The notes beneath the pieces are model-generated. The model ran no database searches. It worked only from the letters and a program-made list of their open reading frames with translations, and was not told the origin of the DNA. DNA of 39,679 nt from a virus: positions 1 to 39,679 of IMG/VR virus record IMGVR_UViG_3300046524_000180; one strand, given 5' to 3'. Shown piece by piece: positions 3,979 through 39,380 of the stretch. A program made the position numbers and the translations under genes. Within the stretch, counting starts at the first letter, position 1. Every line of letters begins with the position of its first letter.

Positions 3979-4292
3979 GATTGCTTGTGAGACTGCGGTT
4001 GCCTTCGGCGTGGCGCGCGCGACGCTGGCGGGAAGACTACGAAATATTCGAGTGCGTTGTTGTGCGGCTGCGTGGGCCTGAATCCAATTTCGCGCACGGC
4101 GAGCGCGGAGCGACGTACATCCGGGCCGACATCGACTTACCCGAGAAGTACCGGAACGAGAAGCTGCTGGATGTGTGGAATCCGGATGGGACATATCCGG
4201 TGGAGGTGGTGGTGAATCACAACCGAAAGACGCTGGCGGCGTTTCTCGCCAGTGGTGATCTGGAGTGGGACGTAAGGGAGAAAGAAGCGTGA
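3975..4292 (+). CDS. hypothetical protein, TTG start
   Basis: No family is recognised. The 105-residue frame lies between two coupled genes; a TTG at 3975 overlaps the previous TGA and is preceded by GGAGG at 3966-3970, five bases upstream. A GTG at 3987 is an alternative start. The N-terminus is Arg-rich, and the rest is a soluble mixed sequence with a likely strand region (GATYIRADIDLP, YPVEVVVNHN). Third-position GC bias supports coding. The stop overlaps the GTG of the next gene. Confidence 0.6.
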   Translation: MRLLVRLRLPSAWRARRWREDYEIFECVVVRLRGPESNFAHGERGATYIRADIDLPEKYRNEKLLDVWNPDGTYPVEVVVNHNRKTLAAFLASGDLEWDVREKEA

Positions 4293-4768
4293 TTGAGTTG
4301 CGCCCGATTACCAGGGATGACGCATTCGAGTTCATTCGCACCCACCATCGCCATCACAACGTTCCAGTCGGCGGCCTCTGGTGGCAGGCCGTCCACGACG
4401 TCGATGGGTCAATCTGCGGCGTCGCCGTTACTGGTCGCCCAGTCGCCCGGCCTTTGGACGATGGGCTGACCGCCGAAGTCACGCGCCTTTGTACGAACGG
4501 TGCTGCGAATGCCTGCTCAATGCTGTATGCGGCTGCGCGGCGCGTGGCCGTAGATAAAGGGTTTCGTCGTGGACTGACATACATCCTTGCGTCGGAAGAC
4601 GGCGCAAGTCTGCGCGCCGCTGGATGGAGACTCCTATGGGAGGTCAAGGGCCGCTCTTGGAATTGTCCGGCGCGACCCAGGGTGGACAAGCATCCGACCG
4701 AGAATAAGACCGCCTATGGATGGGGTGCATGGCCGAATTTCACCGCTGAACATGAGGCAACCCAATGA
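4289..4768 (+). CDS. XF1762-like family protein (GNAT-related)
   Basis: The 159-residue protein starts at GTG 4289, overlapping the preceding stop. It reads VIELRPITRDDAFEFIRTHH, then GVAVTGRPVARPLDDG, TAEVTRLCTNGAANACSMLY and SLRAAGWRLLWEVKGRSW. These are the conserved blocks of the XF1762 family found in many phages, which resembles GNAT acetyltransferases in overall pattern. A substrate is not known. A longer start at GTG 4265 exists but would overlap the previous gene by 28 bases. Confidence 0.7.
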   Translation: MIELRPITRDDAFEFIRTHHRHHNVPVGGLWWQAVHDVDGSICGVAVTGRPVARPLDDGLTAEVTRLCTNGAANACSMLYAAARRVAVDKGFRRGLTYILASEDGASLRAAGWRLLWEVKGRSWNCPARPRVDKHPTENKTAYGWGAWPNFTAEHEATQ

Positions 4769-5025
4769 GCGCACACGCCTATATCCATTACGCCGACGTC
4801 CCCAGCGAACTGACGGCGTCGAGCAGCCAGCGCATTGACAGCGCTACCGGCGCCAAGCTGATCTCGTTCGATGGCTGTCCGCTGACGGGGCAGATCGACA
4901 CACGCAACCCGGCCGAGCCGATGCGGTTGCAGGTCGAGTTTCCGTTCCCTCGTAGCGCCGAACTGCGCAACGCGTTGATCGACTGGCTAATGCACTGGGG
5001 CATTCACTTCACGGTGGTCATGTGA
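4765..5025 (+). CDS. hypothetical protein
   Basis: This 86-residue acidic to neutral protein has no recognised family. Its ATG overlaps the previous stop (ATGA) and its TGA overlaps the following GTG, so it is embedded in the operon. The C-terminal half (LQVEFPFPRSAELRNALIDW) looks like a strand followed by an amphipathic helix. No membrane segment or motif is visible. Confidence 0.6.
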   Translation: MSAHAYIHYADVPSELTASSSQRIDSATGAKLISFDGCPLTGQIDTRNPAEPMRLQVEFPFPRSAELRNALIDWLMHWGIHFTVVM

Positions 5026-5288
5026 GCGCGCCGGCCGAACGCCGCAAGGGCGGAGAACTCGCAAAGCTGGCCGGCATGTGGTCCAACGAGCAGGCCTTCT
5101 GGGATTGGGTGGGCCTGATTCAGGAAAACCCGTGCAATGGTCCGAGCATGGCCGCGTCGTTCATTCGGGCGGTATGCAAGGTCGCGAGCCGCGCAGATTT
5201 AGACCACGACGCCGATGCGCGCGCCCGGTTCGATCAACACATCCGTAAGCCCTACGCGAAGTACCGCGCATCGGTGGGCTGTGTATGA
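5022..5288 (+). CDS. hypothetical protein
   Basis: An 88-residue protein with a GTG start that overlaps the previous stop and a stop that overlaps the next ATG. The central part, MWSNEQAFWDWVGLIQENPC, and the following SMAASFIRAVCKVASRADLD look helical. A family cannot be named. Small genes in this position, between the nuclease genes and the Q-like gene, are often dispensable accessory genes. Confidence 0.6.
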   Translation: MSAPAERRKGGELAKLAGMWSNEQAFWDWVGLIQENPCNGPSMAASFIRAVCKVASRADLDHDADARARFDQHIRKPYAKYRASVGCV

Positions 5289-5902
5289 GGGCCTACTGGC
5301 GCGACGCGCGCGATCCGGCGATTGTGCTCGAGGAAAAACAGAACGAAACCTGCCTAGGCTGTGAGGAGTTGCAAACCAGCCGGTGGTCTGGAACACGGAA
5401 ATATGTATGCAGCAGTGGCGTCCAGAAGGCATCGACGGACATCTACGAAATGCGGCGCTGCAAGAAATACTCTGACGGGGTGAACATGACGCTGGACCAA
5501 AGCGAACAAATCGAAGAACTGCTGCTCAACTGGTACCGCTGGCAGATCTGCCAATCGAATGCCGAGCTGCTCGCGCACTACTACCGCCCCGAAGATCGTA
5601 CGTGCCGTGGCTACGAGACGCCAGCCGGTGTCGACGAACTGACCGAAGAGGCCTATGACTGGGTCGACGACCAGCTCGCTGCGCAGGTCGACACCGTCAT
5701 GGATGACCTTTCGCACCGCGGCACGCTGACGGCGGAGATGCGCGCGGCGATCAGCACCAGTATGCGCAACAAGGTGTGTGGCCGTTCTGTTTGGAGCAGT
5801 GGGCGCGCCGGCGACCAGCACGAGACGTATCAGGCAGCCAAGGAAAATTTACTTCCTATGTTCCTGTCGCGCCGTCTCGTCAACGTTCATGCGCTCGTGT
5901 GA
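5285..5902 (+). CDS. zinc-ribbon protein fused to a Q-like antiterminator-type domain
   Basis: The 205-residue protein has two parts. Residues 1-66 contain CLGCEEL, then YVCSSG and RRCKKY, a likely zinc-binding knuckle. From residue 68, a helical domain begins (MTLDQSEQIEELLLNWYRWQ) and ends with AAISTSMRNKVCGRSVWSSG. The second part resembles proteins that occupy the antitermination (Q) position in betaproteobacterial phages. Being last in the early operon, before the late genes, fits a late activator. A GGGGTG-preceded ATG at 5487 could give a separate shorter protein from the second part only. The Q assignment is an inference. Confidence 0.55.
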   Translation: MRAYWRDARDPAIVLEEKQNETCLGCEELQTSRWSGTRKYVCSSGVQKASTDIYEMRRCKKYSDGVNMTLDQSEQIEELLLNWYRWQICQSNAELLAHYYRPEDRTCRGYETPAGVDELTEEAYDWVDDQLAAQVDTVMDDLSHRGTLTAEMRAAISTSMRNKVCGRSVWSSGRAGDQHETYQAAKENLLPMFLSRRLVNVHALV

Positions 5903-5928
5903 GGGTCAAATATAGTCTGCTTGCGACG

Positions 5929-5955
5929 GGCGCCAGCGTATATTGGCGCGCCCGA
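5929..5955. repeat. imperfect inverted repeat after the early operon
   Basis: GGGCGCCA at 5929-5936 faces TGGCGCGCCC at 5944-5953 across a short AT-containing centre. There is no T-run, so it is not an obvious intrinsic terminator. It separates the early operon from the cargo membrane-protein gene and could be an operator or a transcript-processing hairpin. The bases after it (5975-6005) are AT-rich and may hold the cargo gene's promoter, but no convincing -35 box is visible. Confidence 0.3.
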
Positions 5956-6017: not shown

Positions 6018-6680
6018 ATGGCTGGCGTACAAATGGATGCTCTACTCAATATTGGGAAGATTGCAGTCATTGGCGGGGGAATCATCTTTGCCATCTTTGT
6101 CCTGCTTGCAATCGCCGGTTTTTTTCTCGAGGCTCAAGAATCGAGAAAGTTGAGGCGCGCTAACGAAGAAAAGCTCAATGTTGTTGAGCAACGTGTCCTA
6201 GATGAACCTGGAAAGCCCCAACTGGCGTGGGATCTCGCTCGCGCCAAGCTGGAAAACTATCTTGATCGCAACCTGAGTCAGGTGAGCTCGATTTTATGGC
6301 TGACGTACATAGTGATGGTCGCCGGGTTCAGTCTGATCTTGTACGGCTTGTATAAGTCGTTTGATTCCTCTGGTAGCGTAACGATTGCCGTAGTGGGATC
6401 GGCATCGGGCGTGATCATAAGCTTCATCGGCGGCTCGTTCCTCCTGATCTATAAATCGATAATTGAGCAATCGAGTAACTACGTCTCAATCTTGGAGCGT
6501 ATCAACGCGGTCGGGATGGCGGTCCAGGTTTTAAGTGGAATCCCCGATGATCAAGCGGAGTTGAAGCATAAGACCACCGCGCAGCTTGCGAGCGATCTTA
6601 TTAAAATATATAGCGTGGCGGACACGAAGATGTCGAACACTAGGTCGTCGACAACGCGGCGAGTTAGGAGGCAGCGGTAA
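6018..6680 (+). CDS. membrane protein resembling the TRADD-N-associated membrane domain
   Basis: The 220-residue protein has three predicted membrane segments: about 13-36, 90-113 and 121-146. Between them is a charged helix (38-88) with the block LARAKLENYLDRNLSQVSSI, and after TM3 the block SNYVSILERINAVGMAVQVL. This arrangement and wording match the membrane module called the TRADD-N-associated membrane domain, described from bacterial conflict (immunity) systems. Here no adaptor or NTPase domain is fused. The last 15 residues are basic. The gene is lower in GC than its neighbours and lies alone between the early and late regions, the usual site of cargo genes. A role in phage exclusion or abortive defence is inference. 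ATG 6033 is an alternative start. Confidence 0.65.
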   Translation: MAGVQMDALLNIGKIAVIGGGIIFAIFVLLAIAGFFLEAQESRKLRRANEEKLNVVEQRVLDEPGKPQLAWDLARAKLENYLDRNLSQVSSILWLTYIVMVAGFSLILYGLYKSFDSSGSVTIAVVGSASGVIISFIGGSFLLIYKSIIEQSSNYVSILERINAVGMAVQVLSGIPDDQAELKHKTTAQLASDLIKIYSVADTKMSNTRSSTTRRVRRQR

Positions 6681-6785
6681 ACAGGCCCGAGTGCCGGCAA
6701 AAGCAGCGGGCAGAACTTTTTTACATCCCCTCTTGTGAAGCCAAAAGAAATAGGCTACATTCATTCCCGGAAAGATGCGTCCGCG

Positions 6786-6819
6786 AAACCCGCCAGTCGA
6801 GAGACTCGCGGGTTTTTTC
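6786..6819 (+). terminator. intrinsic terminator
   Basis: AAACCCGC-C-AGTC, a GAGA loop, then GACT-C-GCGGGTTTTTT form a long hairpin followed by six T. It closes the transcript of the cargo membrane-protein gene and lies just upstream of the small gene at 6840. Confidence 0.85.
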
Positions 6820-7389: not shown

Positions 7390-8928
7390 ATGAAAAAACT
7401 GTTCACTGCTTTTGTGCTGTCATTGGCGGCGCTGACGGCTCACGCTCAGGTTTATCCAACAGGTGGACTCCAGTACACCACCAGCGGCGGGATAGTAATC
7501 GGATCCAGCACGACGCTGACCACGTCACAATTAAATAACTGGTCGATATTTACTTCCGCGTCCGCTGTTGCCACGTTGCCCGCCAGTTCGTCGACGCAGA
7601 CCGGTGCAACGATGACATTCATCGGAGGTGGTACAGGCGGCACCATCAAAGGCGCGGGTACGGACAATATAACCAGCGCGCGCACCACCATCGCGAACAC
7701 GTTTCCCGTGGAAGTGGGCCAGACCGTCATTGTGACGAACGAAGGCGGCGGCAACTGGTACGTCGCGTCCATTGGAAATCAGCCCGCCTCCAATAACTGT
7801 CAGAATGTTATGGATTTCGGCGCCGATCCGACAAACTCCGTCAACAACGATTCTGCATTTACCAGGGCGCTGGCCGCGGCACCGACGAACCAGAAGTGTC
7901 TCTATTTCCCCACGGGGACATATAAGTTCGGTGCCCAGATTTCGGTGGCGCAGGTGGCCGGACAGTCTTTGACGATCCGTGGAGATGGCGCAAATCAGAC
8001 GTCCCTGACCTGGCCATCCAATGGCGGCATTTACCTGTCGGCTTCGACAGGTTCCCAGTCGAATGTGTTCCATCTGGAGCATCTGTCGTTGTTGGCGGGA
8101 ACGGCTGGTTCAACCGGCAATGCCGCCTTTACCGCCCAGAACACCAATACGTCTACGCAGCCGGTTCCGGTCGAATTGTCGACGATCGATGACGTGTCGA
8201 TCCATGGTGCCGACGGCTACGTGGCCACCGATTATTGGCGGTATGGGGTACTGCTGTCCAATTGGTCGAACGTCAACGTCACCGGATTGAATATTAACGG
8301 CGGAGGCGGCGGCGGAGACCTTTCCGGGTACACCGCCCAAGGCATCGGCGTGTACTTGACGGCTTCCGCGCCGCCTTACGGTGTCGTCTACAACTTCACG
8401 GATTGCGAGATCAACTATCTGCAGTATGGCATCGAGTACGGTGAGAATATTCAGGGTGTCACCGTCGCCCAGTCGAATTTCACGGGCGGCAAAGTCGGGA
8501 TATTTGCCCCGTACACGAACAGCAGCACGACGCAATTGACGGTGACGTCGTCCCAATTCAACGAAAGCGACTACGGCATCCTCGATCAGCAGGGTATCGC
8601 GTCGACGATGATCGAAAACAACCTGTTCATCATTCCGGTTCCATCAAGCTCCAATGCAGCGATCTCTCTGCAGAGGGTGTACGAAGCGGCCGTGTCAGGG
8701 AACGTTTTCGAGGGGCTTGGGAAAACCAACACGAACGGCCTGGTTGTCGGTACGAAGGTCGGACCGGGCGGCGTTGTAACGGGAAATGTGTTCGACGGCC
8801 TCAATGCCGCAGTCGTACTTGGAAGTGGCTCCGGTAACATGAATGTCCAGTCCAACGTTTATTCCAACAACACTTCGACTGTGATAAATAGCGGATCGGG
8901 CAATACCGTCGGTGGTGGATCGCCTTGA
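7390..8928 (+). CDS. secreted right-handed beta-helix protein (pectate-lyase-3-like)
   Basis: The 512-residue protein begins with a classic signal peptide, MKKLFTAFVLSLAALTAHAQ, with cleavage expected after the AHA. Residues 22-130 are a Thr/Ser/Gly-rich domain with FPVEVGQTVIVTNEGGGNWYV. From about 142, MDFGADPTNSVNNDSAF and YFPTGTYKFG are typical of the pectate lyase superfamily (pectate_lyase_3) domain, followed by repeats rich in Asn, Val and Gly (parallel beta-helix coils). Phage tailspikes use this fold but lack signal peptides, so this protein is probably exported by the lysogen. Its own terminators on both sides mark it as cargo. The polysaccharide target is unknown. The ribosome-binding site is weak. 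Confidence 0.75.
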   Translation: MKKLFTAFVLSLAALTAHAQVYPTGGLQYTTSGGIVIGSSTTLTTSQLNNWSIFTSASAVATLPASSSTQTGATMTFIGGGTGGTIKGAGTDNITSARTTIANTFPVEVGQTVIVTNEGGGNWYVASIGNQPASNNCQNVMDFGADPTNSVNNDSAFTRALAAAPTNQKCLYFPTGTYKFGAQISVAQVAGQSLTIRGDGANQTSLTWPSNGGIYLSASTGSQSNVFHLEHLSLLAGTAGSTGNAAFTAQNTNTSTQPVPVELSTIDDVSIHGADGYVATDYWRYGVLLSNWSNVNVTGLNINGGGGGGDLSGYTAQGIGVYLTASAPPYGVVYNFTDCEINYLQYGIEYGENIQGVTVAQSNFTGGKVGIFAPYTNSSTTQLTVTSSQFNESDYGILDQQGIASTMIENNLFIIPVPSSSNAAISLQRVYEAAVSGNVFEGLGKTNTNGLVVGTKVGPGGVVTGNVFDGLNAAVVLGSGSGNMNVQSNVYSNNTSTVINSGSGNTVGGGSP

Positions 8929-9462: not shown

Positions 9463-10041
9463 ATGCTGAAGCTGAACGTGAATGCCGATGTGAAGGGCAT
9501 CACGGCGAGCCTGACGCGGTATGTCGGCGAGCAGCAGAAAGCGGTCGTGCGGGCGCTCAACAAAACGGCAATGCAAGCTAGAACGGCCGCAGCGCAAGAG
9601 GTGCGCGGCGCTGGCTACAACATCAAGTCCAGCGCGATCAAGAATTCGTTTTCCATCACCAAGGCGGCCCAGGGTCGCTTGGTCGTTGTGCTGAAGTCAA
9701 CGGGTCGCCCGGTTGCACTCATCAACTACGGCGCGCGCCAAGGCAAGAACGGCGTAAGCGTGCAGGTGAAAGCCGGTCGAACCGTTCTGCGTCACGCGTT
9801 CATTGCGACGATGCCGAACGGTCACCGCGGCGTGTTCGAGCGAACCGGCAAGCAGCACAAGAAGGTGAAGCGCAACGGCAAAACAATCCGCTCAGGGTTG
9901 CCGATCAAGGAACTGTTTGGCCCATCCATCCCGCAGTCGCTCGCCAACGATGCCGTTGAGAAGGCGCTGATGGCGAAGATCAGGCAGAAGTTTCCGCAGA
10001 TCCTGAAGCACGAGCTGGCGTTCGTCGCCGCGAAGCGATAG
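9463..10041 (+). CDS. prophage minor tail protein Z (GpZ-like)
   Basis: The 192-residue protein matches the lambda gpZ-like minor tail family: KAVVRALNKTAMQARTAAAQ near the start, VRGAGYNIKSSAIKNSFSIT, then a basic centre with RGVFERTGK and KRNGKTIRSGLPIKELFGPS, and the helical end KALMAKIRQKFPQILKHEL. Such proteins complete the tail or head-tail junction. Its location is unusual: it precedes the terminase genes, far from the other tail genes, and the tail here is of the contractile Mu type. Confidence 0.75.
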   Translation: MLKLNVNADVKGITASLTRYVGEQQKAVVRALNKTAMQARTAAAQEVRGAGYNIKSSAIKNSFSITKAAQGRLVVVLKSTGRPVALINYGARQGKNGVSVQVKAGRTVLRHAFIATMPNGHRGVFERTGKQHKKVKRNGKTIRSGLPIKELFGPSIPQSLANDAVEKALMAKIRQKFPQILKHELAFVAAKR

Positions 10042-31459: not shown

Positions 31460-32359
31460 ATGAAATTTCCGGGGCGAATATTCAGCCAGTCGAAGACGGA
31501 GCATTTTGAAAACGGGAAACAACAAGTTATCGATCGGTCTGGTCGATGGGTAGCTCACAATATAATTCTCCCGTTCGGGCACACCATCTCTTCCGAGATT
31601 GCGGGCGACCATTACCGGTTGCGTCGCTTCTTACAGGTGGTGGCTGATTGCCAACCGAAACCGTTCTCCGCGTTGCGAGTCGTGGACTTCGGATGTCACG
31701 AGGGGCTCTATTCAATTGAGTTCGGCAGACAAGGTTCTACGGTGGTTGGCATCGAGGGAAGGCAGATCCATATCGATAAGGCCGAGTTCATCCGGAATCA
31801 ACTCGACCTTAAGGATGTTTCGTTTCACTGCGACGACGTTCGCAGTTTTGCGCGTGACAAGTACGGCCGTTTCGATGTTGCAGTCTGCACCGGCATTCTT
31901 TATCACCTCGGCTTCGAAGATGGAATGAAATTTCTCGAGGAAATCTGCGCATCTTCGAATATGGTGATCGTCGACACTCACGTCGGATTGCTTCCGGAGC
32001 ATGCCGCCATGTACAAAGAGAAAGAGTACTGGGGTCACGAATATAGTGAGCCGCCGGTCAATGAAACGGACGTCCATGATGTCCTAAAAAACAATGGTGC
32101 ATCAATCGGAAACAATATTAGCTTCTGGCTAACGCGTGGCTCCTTGTTCAATGCCATGATGGATTTCGGTTGCACGTCAGTTTTTGAGATCGGCACGCCC
32201 GCGATACCCGGCCAGTTCTTTGATCGCGTGACTTACGTGGGAGTCAAGGGAAAGCCTGTAAAAGTGATGTCCGCACCCGAGCATTTTGCTTCAGAGAACC
32301 CAAGGCATGGCCTATATCCATGCTTGCACACTGCAGGTCAACCTCTTCCTGAGTATTGA
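31460..32359 (+). CDS. SAM-dependent methyltransferase
   Basis: The 299-residue protein starts at ATG 31460 after GAGGAGACGCC. RVVDFGCHEGLYSIEFGRQG is motif I (SAM binding), VVGIEGRQIHIDKA is motif II with the acidic residue, VSFHCDDVRSF and FDVAVCTGILYHLG are motifs III and IV. The C-terminal 130 residues are not recognised. It is lower in GC than the tail genes and directly follows the fibre genes, so it may be cargo that modifies a surface glycan, a fibre or a small molecule. A DNA target is less likely, as no base-methyltransferase motif is visible. Confidence 0.7.
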   Translation: MKFPGRIFSQSKTEHFENGKQQVIDRSGRWVAHNIILPFGHTISSEIAGDHYRLRRFLQVVADCQPKPFSALRVVDFGCHEGLYSIEFGRQGSTVVGIEGRQIHIDKAEFIRNQLDLKDVSFHCDDVRSFARDKYGRFDVAVCTGILYHLGFEDGMKFLEEICASSNMVIVDTHVGLLPEHAAMYKEKEYWGHEYSEPPVNETDVHDVLKNNGASIGNNISFWLTRGSLFNAMMDFGCTSVFEIGTPAIPGQFFDRVTYVGVKGKPVKVMSAPEHFASENPRHGLYPCLHTAGQPLPEY

Positions 32360-33854: not shown

Positions 33855-34994
33855 TTACTCAATGGTTGAAGCGTCCAAAGCAGTTGGCGCCCTTTTTGTC
33901 GTATTGAACCCGCAGATTGCGGCCAGTCTGCGGCCGGCTTGTACCGATAGCGACTCAATCGGAGAGAAAAGGTGAGCGCCGACAAGACACAGCGGGACCA
34001 CAACCAAGATTTCAATCGCGGAAACCGCGAATCCATGGACGCCCGATTTGATCAACCACAGGCCCAGTCGAGACGCCACGATGCACAAGACAAGGCTATG
34101 TACCAGATAGAGTGGAAAGGATAGTAGTCCGAGCTTATGAGACAGTCGGCACTCCATCGCGCTTATCAGGCGTGCATTGACAAGAACGGCCGCAACGACA
34201 ATGGTGCCGAGGATCGATACGGTGGTAGTGCTCGAGTACAGGTGCCGTTGCACAACCGCGACGTACCACATTATCGCAATTAGGCTAATTGATAAATACG
34301 CGGCATAACGCGACGATCGGATTTTCTCGATCGCGCTCGAATCGTAGACTTCCGCCAGCATTATTCCGGCAATGAAAGCCGAGAATGAAGAATCCATGGC
34401 AGCGCAGGCAGACCAGAACAGGACGTATGCAAGCCATCGCGCGCGAAATCTACCCAGCGCGGTGAGGACGGCAAAAACGATAGCGCTGCCAGCTAATTCG
34501 ACACTCATGGTCCATAAGACCGGACTGTATGAATGCAACGGCTCGTAATGGAAAAACACGTCCCAAAGAGCGAAGCGAAGCGCGTCGCCGAGCGATTCGT
34601 GAAATTGATACGCTGAGGCCGGCCAGTTTGTGTGCCCGGTCAACCCAGCCAGTTGAGGTGCGGCGTTCAGTCCCAAGCGCATCATTGAAAAACCAAGTAG
34701 CGATGCAGCAAGGACCGGAATAGCTAGTCGTGGGTATCTTCTGATGGCGAGAGACGCAATACCTCTCCTTGATCCACCGCGCACGAAAGCAATGGATAGT
34801 GAAAATCCAGAGACAACAAAAAACACGTAGACCGCTAGTGCGCCATCCATCGGCGGCATGAGCCAACGAAGGGTATGTAGCTGGTCCGCCGTGAGCACGA
34901 ACGTCGGCAGTAGATGGTAGAGGACAACCGCTAGCGCTGCCCACCCTCTAATACCGTCCAAGAAAAGTAGCCGGCTGGGTTCTCTGTGTTGCAT
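33855..34994 (-). CDS. acyltransferase family 3 (OafA-like) membrane protein
   Basis: The 379-residue protein has about ten hydrophobic segments. FLDGIRGWAALAVVLYHLLP carries Arg16 and His27, the R-X10-H motif of the family; VYVFFVVSGFSLS and RRYPRLAIPVLAASLLG are the next conserved blocks. No extracellular SGNH domain is fused. Phage relatives O-acetylate lipopolysaccharide and change the serotype of the lysogen, which also blocks reinfection. The gene is AT-richer than the virion genes and is transcribed against them. Confidence 0.85.
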   Translation of the reverse strand: MQHREPSRLLFLDGIRGWAALAVVLYHLLPTFVLTADQLHTLRWLMPPMDGALAVYVFFVVSGFSLSIAFVRGGSRRGIASLAIRRYPRLAIPVLAASLLGFSMMRLGLNAAPQLAGLTGHTNWPASAYQFHESLGDALRFALWDVFFHYEPLHSYSPVLWTMSVELAGSAIVFAVLTALGRFRARWLAYVLFWSACAAMDSSFSAFIAGIMLAEVYDSSAIEKIRSSRYAAYLSISLIAIMWYVAVVQRHLYSSTTTVSILGTIVVAAVLVNARLISAMECRLSHKLGLLSFPLYLVHSLVLCIVASRLGLWLIKSGVHGFAVSAIEILVVVPLCLVGAHLFSPIESLSVQAGRRLAAICGFNTTKRAPTALDASTIE

Positions 34995-35171: not shown

Positions 35172-35501
35172 ATGGATTACGCCGCCGTCGCAGAGGTTGG
35201 ATGTGCAGGGTTCGCTGCTGTCAGCGGTCTTTTGGGGTGGCTCTGGCAGCGCTCTGAATCATTGCGCGACAGGACTATCAAGGATCAGGGCGAAACCATC
35301 AAAGAGATCGGCAGGGCGCTTGATGCACACAAGCTATACGTCGCCGAGCACTACGTCACCCAGACCGAGTTGACCAAGGCCGTCGGCAGCCTGGAGCGCT
35401 CAATCGAGCGCCTCATTGAGGCGGTCAACCAGAACTCGAAAGAGACGCGCGAAGGCTTCGCCGAGATCCATCGGCGCATTGACACGAAGGCGGATAAATG
35501 A
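35172..35501 (+). CDS. membrane-anchored coiled-coil protein of the lysis region
   Basis: The 109-residue protein has one N-terminal membrane segment (about 5-25, ending GLLGWLWQRSESLRDR) and then a long heptad-like helix (TIKEIGRALDAHKLYVAEHY, SLERSIERLIEAVNQNSKET). It ends at a TGA overlapping the endolysin start. This single-span plus coiled-coil form is seen in phage lysis modules and could be a holin partner or inner-membrane spanin, but neither can be proved from the sequence. Confidence 0.65.
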   Translation: MDYAAVAEVGCAGFAAVSGLLGWLWQRSESLRDRTIKDQGETIKEIGRALDAHKLYVAEHYVTQTELTKAVGSLERSIERLIEAVNQNSKETREGFAEIHRRIDTKADK

Positions 35502-36070
35502 ATCTGACTGTTCCCATCGTTGCCGCGGGGTGCGGCGCGACCGTCATGCGCGCATCGCAGTGGGTGCAGCCGCTTCAGGCAGCGTGCGACAAGTACGCGA
35601 TTACCACGCCACTGAGCGTCGCCGCGTTTCTCACGACGGTCGGCGTCGAGTCGGCACGGCTCGTCTTCACGAAAGAACTATGGGGCCCGACGCTGGCGCA
35701 GACCGCGTATGAGCCGCCATCGAAGAAGGCGAGCGAGCTGGGCAACACGCAGCCCGGCGACGGCCTACGATTCTGCGGACGCGGCCTGATCCAGATAACC
35801 GGGCGCCGCAACTACTCGCTCGCGGCGATCGGCCTCGACCTCGATCTGCTGAATCACCCCGAGCTGCTCGAGCAGCCGACCAACGCCGCGATGTCTGCGG
35901 GCTGGTACTGGTTCAACCGCAGGCTCAACACGCTGGCGGATGCTGGCGATTTCCTCGGCGTGTCGCGCACGGTGAACGTCGGCAGCGCAGCGTCGAAGGC
36001 GACGCCGAACGGTTACTCCGAGCGGCTGGCGCTCTATGGCGCCGCGAAGAAAGCGCTCGGCATCATCTGA
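35498..36070 (+). CDS. endolysin, glycoside hydrolase family 19
   Basis: The 190-residue protein has no signal peptide. LSVAAFLTTVGVESARLVFT holds the likely catalytic Glu51, and KELWGPTLAQTAYE holds Glu60. GDGLRFCGRGLIQITGRRNY and AMSAGWYWFNRRLNTLAD are the conserved GH19 blocks. It would cut the glycan chains of peptidoglycan after a holin lets it through the membrane. ATG 35498 overlaps the upstream stop (ATGA). Confidence 0.92.
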   Translation: MNLTVPIVAAGCGATVMRASQWVQPLQAACDKYAITTPLSVAAFLTTVGVESARLVFTKELWGPTLAQTAYEPPSKKASELGNTQPGDGLRFCGRGLIQITGRRNYSLAAIGLDLDLLNHPELLEQPTNAAMSAGWYWFNRRLNTLADAGDFLGVSRTVNVGSAASKATPNGYSERLALYGAAKKALGII

Positions 36071-36880: not shown

Positions 36881-37324
36881 ATGAAGAAGCTCATGCTGCT
36901 TGCGGCAGGCCTTGTCGCGCTCGTGGCTGGCTGTGCCACCACTGGTTCGCAAACTCCCGCCGAAGTTCCGGCTAACGTTCAGACGCAAGTCACGAAGGCC
37001 TGCGCAGTTGCCAATCCGACGTTGCTTTCGTTGCAGGCTATGGCGACTCAGATGACTGCCGACCAAGCCGCCGATCTGGTCAAGGCGTCGACCATTGTTA
37101 CCGAAGTCTGTTCGGCAAAGGCTCCTGAAATCAACTCGATGCAAGACCTGGTGAATTTCGCCGTCCCGGCAGCAATCCGAATCATCTCTGCTTCGCCGAT
37201 GAAGGATGCGGACAAGACGACTGCTGAGATCGCGCTGACGGCTGCTTCGGTGGCAGTCTCGGCGGCCCTCGCTCAGTACTCGCCGGCTGTCGCCGTCCCC
37301 GCCTCCGGAGCAACGCCATCGTGA
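36881..37324 (+). CDS. phage lipoprotein
   Basis: The 147-residue protein starts MKKLMLLAAGLVALVAGCAT, a clear lipoprotein signal with Cys18. The mature part is Ala/Thr/Val-rich and helical (LLSLQAMATQMTADQAADLV, IALTAASVAVSAALAQYSPA). Such lipoproteins are frequent in betaproteobacterial phage lysis modules; a role in lysis or exclusion is possible. Its TGA overlaps the GTG of the next gene. Confidence 0.7.
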   Translation: MKKLMLLAAGLVALVAGCATTGSQTPAEVPANVQTQVTKACAVANPTLLSLQAMATQMTADQAADLVKASTIVTEVCSAKAPEINSMQDLVNFAVPAAIRIISASPMKDADKTTAEIALTAASVAVSAALAQYSPAVAVPASGATPS

Positions 37325-37987: not shown

Positions 37988-38185
37988 TTACTCAATATCG
38001 TCGAGCAGCATAAATCCAAATCGCTTCATTTCAACGATTGGAATTGGCGCATCCTTGGGCCGGCCGCTCGGGCGCTTTTTCAGTCGCTCGCTATTCGCGT
38101 GAATCTCTTCGTCGTTCCTGCTAAGACGCTCTATCTCGGCGTCAACGTCGCCGAACGGGCGCTCGACTGGCCTTATCTTTTCCAC
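37988..38185 (-). CDS. small protein downstream of the second acyltransferase
   Basis: A GTG at 38185 on the minus strand, 10 bases inside the acyltransferase 3' end, starts 65 residues: VEKIRPVERPFGDVDAEIER, then SRNDEEIHANSERLKKRPSG, RPKDAPIPIVEMKRFGFML. It is charged and helical with GC-biased third positions. A longer frame upstream is Arg-rich noise. No family is known. The overlap suggests co-translation with the acyltransferase. Confidence 0.45.
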   Translation of the reverse strand: MEKIRPVERPFGDVDAEIERLSRNDEEIHANSERLKKRPSGRPKDAPIPIVEMKRFGFMLLDDIE

Positions 38186-39249
38186 GATTTTCCGCCCCCG
38201 TTGCGCAGGAAAATTCCTGCGGTGTGCCGAATCATAGCTCTCGCAGGGCGCTCGAAAAAGAAATATACAAAAAGCGATGCGGCCACGAGAACCGCTAGGC
38301 AAATATAAAAATGAGCCGTAACCCCCATCGGATATACCCCCTTCAGTTTCTCCCCGAACCAAAGCATCACTGGCATCTGTAACAGATACATCGCATAGCT
38401 TGCTTCGCCGAGCGTCACCGCCGCGCGGTGCTCGAGCAAGCCAAAGCGTGGCAGCGAAGCTATCACCCATATCCCGGCAAGGAACAGTGGTGCATATAGC
38501 CCGTTCGCGGAGTAAGCCTTGAGCCCGATCAGCGGAGACACGAAGTACACCAGTGCGACAGCAGCGACGCTGCCGGTGCACATAAACGCTATTGGAGCGG
38601 GCCCCGGCTTCTTGAGTTGGAATGCGGTGCCCGCCACCGCGCCGAGTACGAACTCGTCTATGTGCATCAGCGGGAAATAGAAAATGAAGTCGTGGGACTT
38701 CGACGGAAACGCTTCATAGTGGAAACGCAGTAAGTAGAAGGTCAGGATCTGCGTTGTGAACCACAGCGCGACCGCGGCGGCGGTCGTGACTCTCAGGTTC
38801 TTTCGCGTCAATGCGTCAGCAAAAAACGGGAATACCAGGTAGAACAGCGCTTCGACCGAAAGCGACCAGCCGGGCGCATTCAATGTCAGCGGATAACCGG
38901 GCACCCACGATTGCAACAACAAGGCTGAGAGGACAATCTGTGCGGGCGTAGAGGCTGAGATCCAAATCACACTTAGCGCCAAAGCCAGCAGATACACCGG
39001 GTAGATTCGCGCGACTCGTGCCACCCAGTATTCTTTCTTTTCGAACCAGTTCATCGGCGTCTGGTAGACCGTCGCCATAATGAAGCCGGACAGGCAGTAA
39101 AAGAACGACACGGCGTTATTTCCACGCGCGATCGGCAGATGAAGCCAAGTTGCATCAAATGGCGGGACGGCCTGACCGAAGTGGAACAGAACGACGAATA
39201 GTGCGGCGATAAAGCGAAGCGGCGTGAGACGACGCAAATGTTGGTGCAC
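38173..39249 (-). CDS. second acyltransferase family 3 membrane protein
   Basis: I chose GTG 39249 because the family begins right after it; the frame is open to 39324. The 358 residues open with LTPLRFIAALFVVLFHFGQA, which holds Arg12 and His23 (the R-X10-H motif), then NNAVSFFYCLSGFIMATVYQ, VARVARIYPVYLLALALSVI and LNAPGWSLSVEALFYLVFPF, all family 3 blocks, and about ten membrane helices. It is only distantly like the acyltransferase at 33855. It lies at the very end of the prophage, next to the attachment site, as serotype-converting genes often do. Confidence 0.85.
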   Translation of the reverse strand: MHQHLRRLTPLRFIAALFVVLFHFGQAVPPFDATWLHLPIARGNNAVSFFYCLSGFIMATVYQTPMNWFEKKEYWVARVARIYPVYLLALALSVIWISASTPAQIVLSALLLQSWVPGYPLTLNAPGWSLSVEALFYLVFPFFADALTRKNLRVTTAAAVALWFTTQILTFYLLRFHYEAFPSKSHDFIFYFPLMHIDEFVLGAVAGTAFQLKKPGPAPIAFMCTGSVAAVALVYFVSPLIGLKAYSANGLYAPLFLAGIWVIASLPRFGLLEHRAAVTLGEASYAMYLLQMPVMLWFGEKLKGVYPMGVTAHFYICLAVLVAASLFVYFFFERPARAMIRHTAGIFLRNGGGKSWKR

Positions 39250-39380
39250 GGAAGTTCTCAGGCAAAACTTTGTAATGGAGCGCAGTCTACAACAAGATTT
39301 GGTAAGGGTCGGGTGATACAGCACTCATGCAGTGCCAGCCTTATGCCAGCATCCCTTATCCGAGCGCCTGTTTGCAAGAA

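Follow-up and report, generated by a model that had tools for sequence, protein, structure and literature searches.

A gene of 220 codons in the window (the whole 39,679-base virus contig analysed here) encodes the membrane domain associated with TRADD-N systems as a small protein in its own right, and belongs to a subfamily of the PF20712 domain that is distinct, stands alone, had no name before and is carried as mobile cargo by phages and integrons. On sequence grounds we read it as a moron, that is an accessory cargo gene, for an inner-membrane protein that is a candidate one-gene anti-phage membrane effector, a reading to which we give a probability of about 0.5.

A stand-alone PF20712 membrane protein

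The open-reading frame is intact from its ATG to its TAA, with an ambiguous start codon (6018 or 6033), and its product is predicted to be an inner-membrane protein with the spans and helices given in Table 1. The predicted orientation, N-out and C-in, is consistent with the K/R counts in the loops, and the second span of the hairpin is glycine-rich. The preliminary description had named three spans and two sequence blocks, and all of these are present in the hydropathy profile and the translation: LENYLDRNLSQ at residues 78–88 and SNYVSILERINAVGM at residues 153–167.

Table 1 Features of the cargo gene and its immediate surroundings in the window
Feature	Position	Strand	Basis
Q-like early gene, directly upstream	5285..5902	+	position, weak similarity to last gene of phage IPK
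GC-rich imperfect inverted repeat in gap between Q-like gene and cargo gene; weak, possibly chance	5927..5954	+	z −1.4
Stand-alone PF20712 membrane protein gene, 220 aa, short form with one N-terminal span	6018..6680	+	
N-terminal membrane span, aa 15–33	6060..6116	+	hydropathy 2.87
PF20712 core, aa 84–151: helical hairpin, spans aa 89–107 and 126–144	6267..6470	+	profile match, hydropathy
LERINAVGM motif, aa 159–167, predicted cytoplasmic helix	6492..6518	+	invariant in alignments
Intrinsic terminator downstream of gene, hairpin and U-tract	6785..6816	+	−20.8 kcal/mol, z −3.5

Pfam PF20712 (CyanoTRADDas_TM, Cyanobacterial TRADD-N associated 2-transmembrane domain) matches the core of the protein over 67 of its 68 positions (1–67; 4e-14, 52.9 bits against a cut-off of 24.3), and likewise matches 18 of 18 aligned members and scores above cut-off in 24 of 24 records that hold family loci. 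The profile search therefore places the protein in the membrane-domain family first proposed for it and not in an unrelated one. The accompanying claim, that this module is a described effector, is supported as to the domain family but not as to a tested effector: the main text of the TRADD-N paper contains no description of a PF20712-type domain in that role, and a search of one paper library found none naming PF20712 or CyanoTRADDas. PADLOC and NCBIfam returned no model or significant match, PHROGs gave two weak matches, both of unknown function, tblastn found no relative in the GenBank phage and plasmid collections, and a sequence search of the PDB gave nothing useful.

A TRADD-N conflict system would be recognised by an adaptor fused to the membrane domain or encoded beside it, and by linkage to a STAND NTPase, caspase or EACC2 component (PMC8195603). 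No TRADD-N adaptor is fused to the window protein, all of which is accounted for, or stands beside its gene in Pfam and PHROG scans of most neighbouring open-reading frames in the window, and no STAND NTPase, caspase, EACC2 or peptidase lies near it. The gene as it stands is thus not a TRADD-N system, and the earlier suggestion that it lacks the usual adaptor or NTPase agrees with these scans. Its architecture also differs from that of the PF20712 domain, in that the domain here is part of a whole small protein, which adds one or more N-terminal spans before it and a LERINAVGM helix at the C-terminal end.

Other membrane families were compared and rejected. SLATT, a predicted pore former (PMC7159879), and DUF4231 are also small helical-hairpin membrane proteins of defence loci, but show no profile–profile relation to the window family: hhalign gave a probability of 0.4%, with reversed-sequence controls equal or higher, and DUF4231 matched weakly in 2 of 18 members (best 5.6e-4). 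The proton channels MotA/ExbB/TolQ resemble the topology of the three-span form only and likewise show no profile–profile relation (1.6%, reversed controls 1.9 and 11.7%). 8xMP (PF24838) matched weakly in 7 of 18 members and reached 17.2 bits against a cut-off of 30 for the window protein; its hhalign probability was 0.2%, from a small, imperfect alignment of a few poorly chosen open-reading frames that makes it a weaker test than those for SLATT and ExbB/TolQ.

Insertion between early and late genes

The gene lies, as had been proposed, between early genes on its left (O-like initiator, Holliday-junction resolvase, HNH, Mom-like and Q-like) and late genes after it (neck, small and large terminase, capsid decoration, tail, sheath, endolysin and spanin). 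The Q-like gene, which ends 115 bp upstream, has no Pfam or PHROG match; its name comes from its position and from the last gene of Paraburkholderia phage IPK, which it resembles weakly (28% identity over 68 aa, E 5e-6). The early region of IPK is alike in patches at 68–86% identity up to window position 5025. The Q-like gene of IPK ends 108 bp short of one end of the linear record, and the first IPK gene, a small terminase by gene order, starts 84 bp from the other. IPK thus resembles the window in its early region yet carries no relative of the window gene, so that the gene is an addition at its place.

Its base composition and downstream signal point the same way. With a GC of 0.502 against 0.601 in the rest of the record it is the lowest of all open-reading frames above 60 aa, and the terminator begins 105 bp past its stop codon, so that the low GC and private terminator noted in the preliminary description were both recovered. 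Atypical GC, a terminator, absence from IPK and differing slots among phages together mark it as a moron and bear out the cargo character first ascribed to it. No sigma-70-type promoter consensus was found for the gene, and neither the Rfam nor the tRNA scan of the window gave a match. For the record being a prophage, as first described, the basis is its kin and gene content, from which a temperate lifestyle is inferred; neither an integrase nor a repressor was found among the window open-reading frames scanned.

Several other genes of the window deserve mention. Low-GC genes for a methyltransferase and two acyltransferases (31460–32359 (+), 33855–34994 (−) and 38173–39324 (−)) are likely surface or serotype-conversion cargo, one acyltransferase matching the O-antigen acetylase and O-acetyltransferase PHROGs. 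A Mom-like DNA-modification protein at 4265–4768 (+) (phrog_1384, 9e-33) has a possible anti-restriction function. Between the Q-like and neck genes, 7390–8928 (+) encodes a protein of 512 aa whose N-terminus is signal-like and which matches no Pfam or PHROG entry. Unusually, a neck/tail-completion gene at 9463–10041 (+) precedes the terminase genes.

A rare subfamily spread over at least five phyla

The match of the window protein is more than chance, as we found about 25 homologous loci, nearly all with intact open-reading frames, in at least five phyla (Pseudomonadota, Thermodesulfobacteriota, Bacteroidota, Verrucomicrobia and Gemmatimonadota). A single scan of 84,980 species genomes yielded 21 loci; virus contigs added four records, of which L003 represents the prophage already seen as L010, and a draw of Burkholderiales added two loci. 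The domain is rare: in random draws it exceeded cut-off in 4 of 399 genomes from one order and in 4 of 247 from one class. A scan of DNA for the motif pattern returned unrelated phage proteins that hold RINAVGM by chance, and these were discarded.

Members are ca. 200–265 aa long and consist of the PF20712 hairpin with one or two extra N-terminal spans. In the typical order, two N-terminal spans are followed by a cytoplasmic AWDxARxKLExYLxRN helix, the hairpin and a cytoplasmic LERINAVGM helix, giving four spans in most relatives against three in the window protein; the short form with one N-terminal span also occurs in L002 and L029. Conservation peaks at the amphipathic helix entering the membrane, at the glycines of the last span and at LERINAVGM, each residue of which is invariant in alignments of 18 and 20 members, whilst the divergent L029 reads MERINSVGM instead. 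No catalytic set is evident in the alignment, the invariant residues being mostly packing residues and charged helix residues. In the tree the window protein and L002 are sisters (support 96/91), and phage, integron and chromosomal copies are otherwise intermixed.

AlphaFold models of the window short form and the L006 long form (pLDDT 78 and 74, pTM 0.57 and 0.53) both predict, at moderate confidence, long helices that leave the membrane and extend into the cytoplasm. Structure searches found no significant match for either model in the PDB, nor for the window form among viral models. Shorter, divergent PF20712 proteins occur in Candidatus Electronema (L082:7717–8181 and L083:6992–7576), in a genome that also holds a stand-alone copy; one of these PF20712 genes lies inside a respiratory NADH-dehydrogenase-like cluster with a GC of 0.38.

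Carriage by phages and integrons

Relatives of the window gene occupy about six phage or prophage contexts and five integron cassettes. The suggested check of other prophages for the gene at this locus found it in several phages and prophages, but in differing slots, and IPK is without it. For example, in the T7-like phage L037 the gene stands alone on the opposite strand between the major capsid and tail-tube genes, adjoining the capsid-gene terminator, with a GC of 0.53 against 0.64. In L039 the gene is the first of three in a low-GC island, also on the opposite strand, flanked by a large structural open-reading frame (likely the portal) and a terminase-like gene, whilst in L009 and L003/L010 it immediately follows a tyrosine integrase. 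The same L039 island holds two orphan genes (L039:10562–11301) for proteins of 68 aa, with one hydrophobic span, and 158 aa, and could be a small multi-gene variant.

L006, L013, L015 and L030 have attC-type sites that surround the gene or immediately follow it. In L008 the gene is the first of the cassettes and adjoins a divergent tyrosine-recombinase gene in the position of an integron integrase. All five count as integron cassettes by the criterion of bounding attC sites, or of attI and attC near intI. In 18 of 21 loci the gene has a lower GC than the DNA around it (Wilcoxon p = 3.5e-4), and this, together with the rarity of the gene and its varied carriage by phages and integrons, is the signature of mobile cargo.

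Defence genes are seen beside a few copies: in L021, genes for an AbiJ_NTD4/PDC-S32 protein and an AAA_15 ATPase lie directly downstream, a PtuA-type ATPase ca. 2 kb downstream in L020, and one neighbour in L022 has a weak TIR match. For most chromosomal copies no obvious defence gene was seen nearby, and no partner gene is conserved across some 25 loci.

What the cargo protein may do

We favour an anti-phage membrane effector because of the family association, the carriage by both phages and integrons and the defence genes beside some relatives; the missing PADLOC and NCBIfam models, the scarcity of obvious defence neighbours among chromosomal copies and the failure to identify a promoter count against it. 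The exclusion or cell-death role first suggested for the protein is plausible, on support that is contextual. The course of events that we propose, in which we infer the steps beyond the inner-membrane protein itself, is as follows. The protein would be made in the lysogen and would form an oligomer of helical hairpins in the inner membrane, its long helices extending into the cytoplasm. When another phage infects, a change may be sensed by these helices, candidates being the AWDxARxKLExYLxRN region, which is strongly conserved, and LERINAVGM, which is invariant, and the triggered protein would then disturb or permeabilise the inner membrane, halting the infection. Pore formation is only putative, as the fold models are of moderate confidence and match nothing. 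For the subfamily as a whole, we tentatively propose, at slightly less than even odds, that the membrane module of TRADD-N-type systems has been freed from adaptors and NTPases and forms a self-triggered, single-gene anti-phage family, spread by phages and integrons over at least five phyla.

The protein could instead act at the step of DNA entry, blocking injection by particular phages whilst the cell survives. SieA of phage P22 is an inner-membrane protein of 162–164 aa with three spans, whose types are less than 30% identical and affect only P22-like phages (PMC10883804). The window protein, a short three-span form, is like SieA and other exclusion proteins in being phage-borne, small and in the inner membrane, but its core is strongly conserved from Proteobacteria to Bacteroidota and is also found in integrons, and it has no significant match to a PHROG of known function. 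Since the sequence is conserved across phyla, a narrow injection blocker of the SieA kind is disfavoured, and we consider superinfection exclusion of this type unlikely. We think it similarly unlikely that the gene has no part in defence and instead changes the membrane physiology or the stress tolerance of the host, or adjusts lysis or gene expression of the phage itself. Morons and integron cassettes often carry many other traits besides defence, the same record bears the methyltransferase and acyltransferases, likely surface modifiers, and a place just after the Q-like gene could mean late expression. As the lysis genes lie elsewhere in the record (endolysin 35498–36070, spanin-like 36881–37324), the gene is not needed for lysis; it has no significant holin match and its subfamily also occurs outside phages, and a phage lysis protein is unlikely.

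Two further explanations carry little weight. The protein would be half of a split system if it served as membrane effector for a host-encoded adaptor or NTPase elsewhere, as might be read from the TRADD-N adaptor association in its Pfam name and from the AAA/AbiJ pair in L021; the lack of a conserved partner, the single-gene integron cassettes and the opposite-strand single insertions in phages argue for self-sufficiency and make this improbable. Most improbable of all is a decaying remnant that lost its first N-terminal span and its function: the window protein does have three spans where most relatives have four, but its open-reading frame is intact with every invariant core residue present, and the short form is shared by L002, its best-supported sister, and L029.

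Two known systems are near parallels to the anti-phage effector that we favour. PdpSau of S. aureus is a prophage-encoded abortive-infection protein that acts at the membrane against unrelated lytic phages (PMC10127798). It is likewise a single prophage accessory gene, but combines one span with an OB-like cytoplasmic domain where the window family is all-helical with three or four spans, so that the likeness is an analogy only. In published screens at least 16 of 179 V. cholerae integron cassettes (about 10%) were anti-phage (PMC12409362); anti-phage cassettes of Vibrio and mobile integrons are small and single-gene, and the five cassette-borne relatives of the window gene resemble them by cassette type.

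If the protein protects alone, it would be a conflict-system effector in its minimal form, whereas such effectors are otherwise known only as parts of complex, regulated systems. It would let the trigger of the membrane module be studied without its adaptor, and would represent one defence gene with both prophages and integrons as its vehicles. Even if it is non-defensive, it is a clean case of one gene captured repeatedly by unrelated phages at differing sites.
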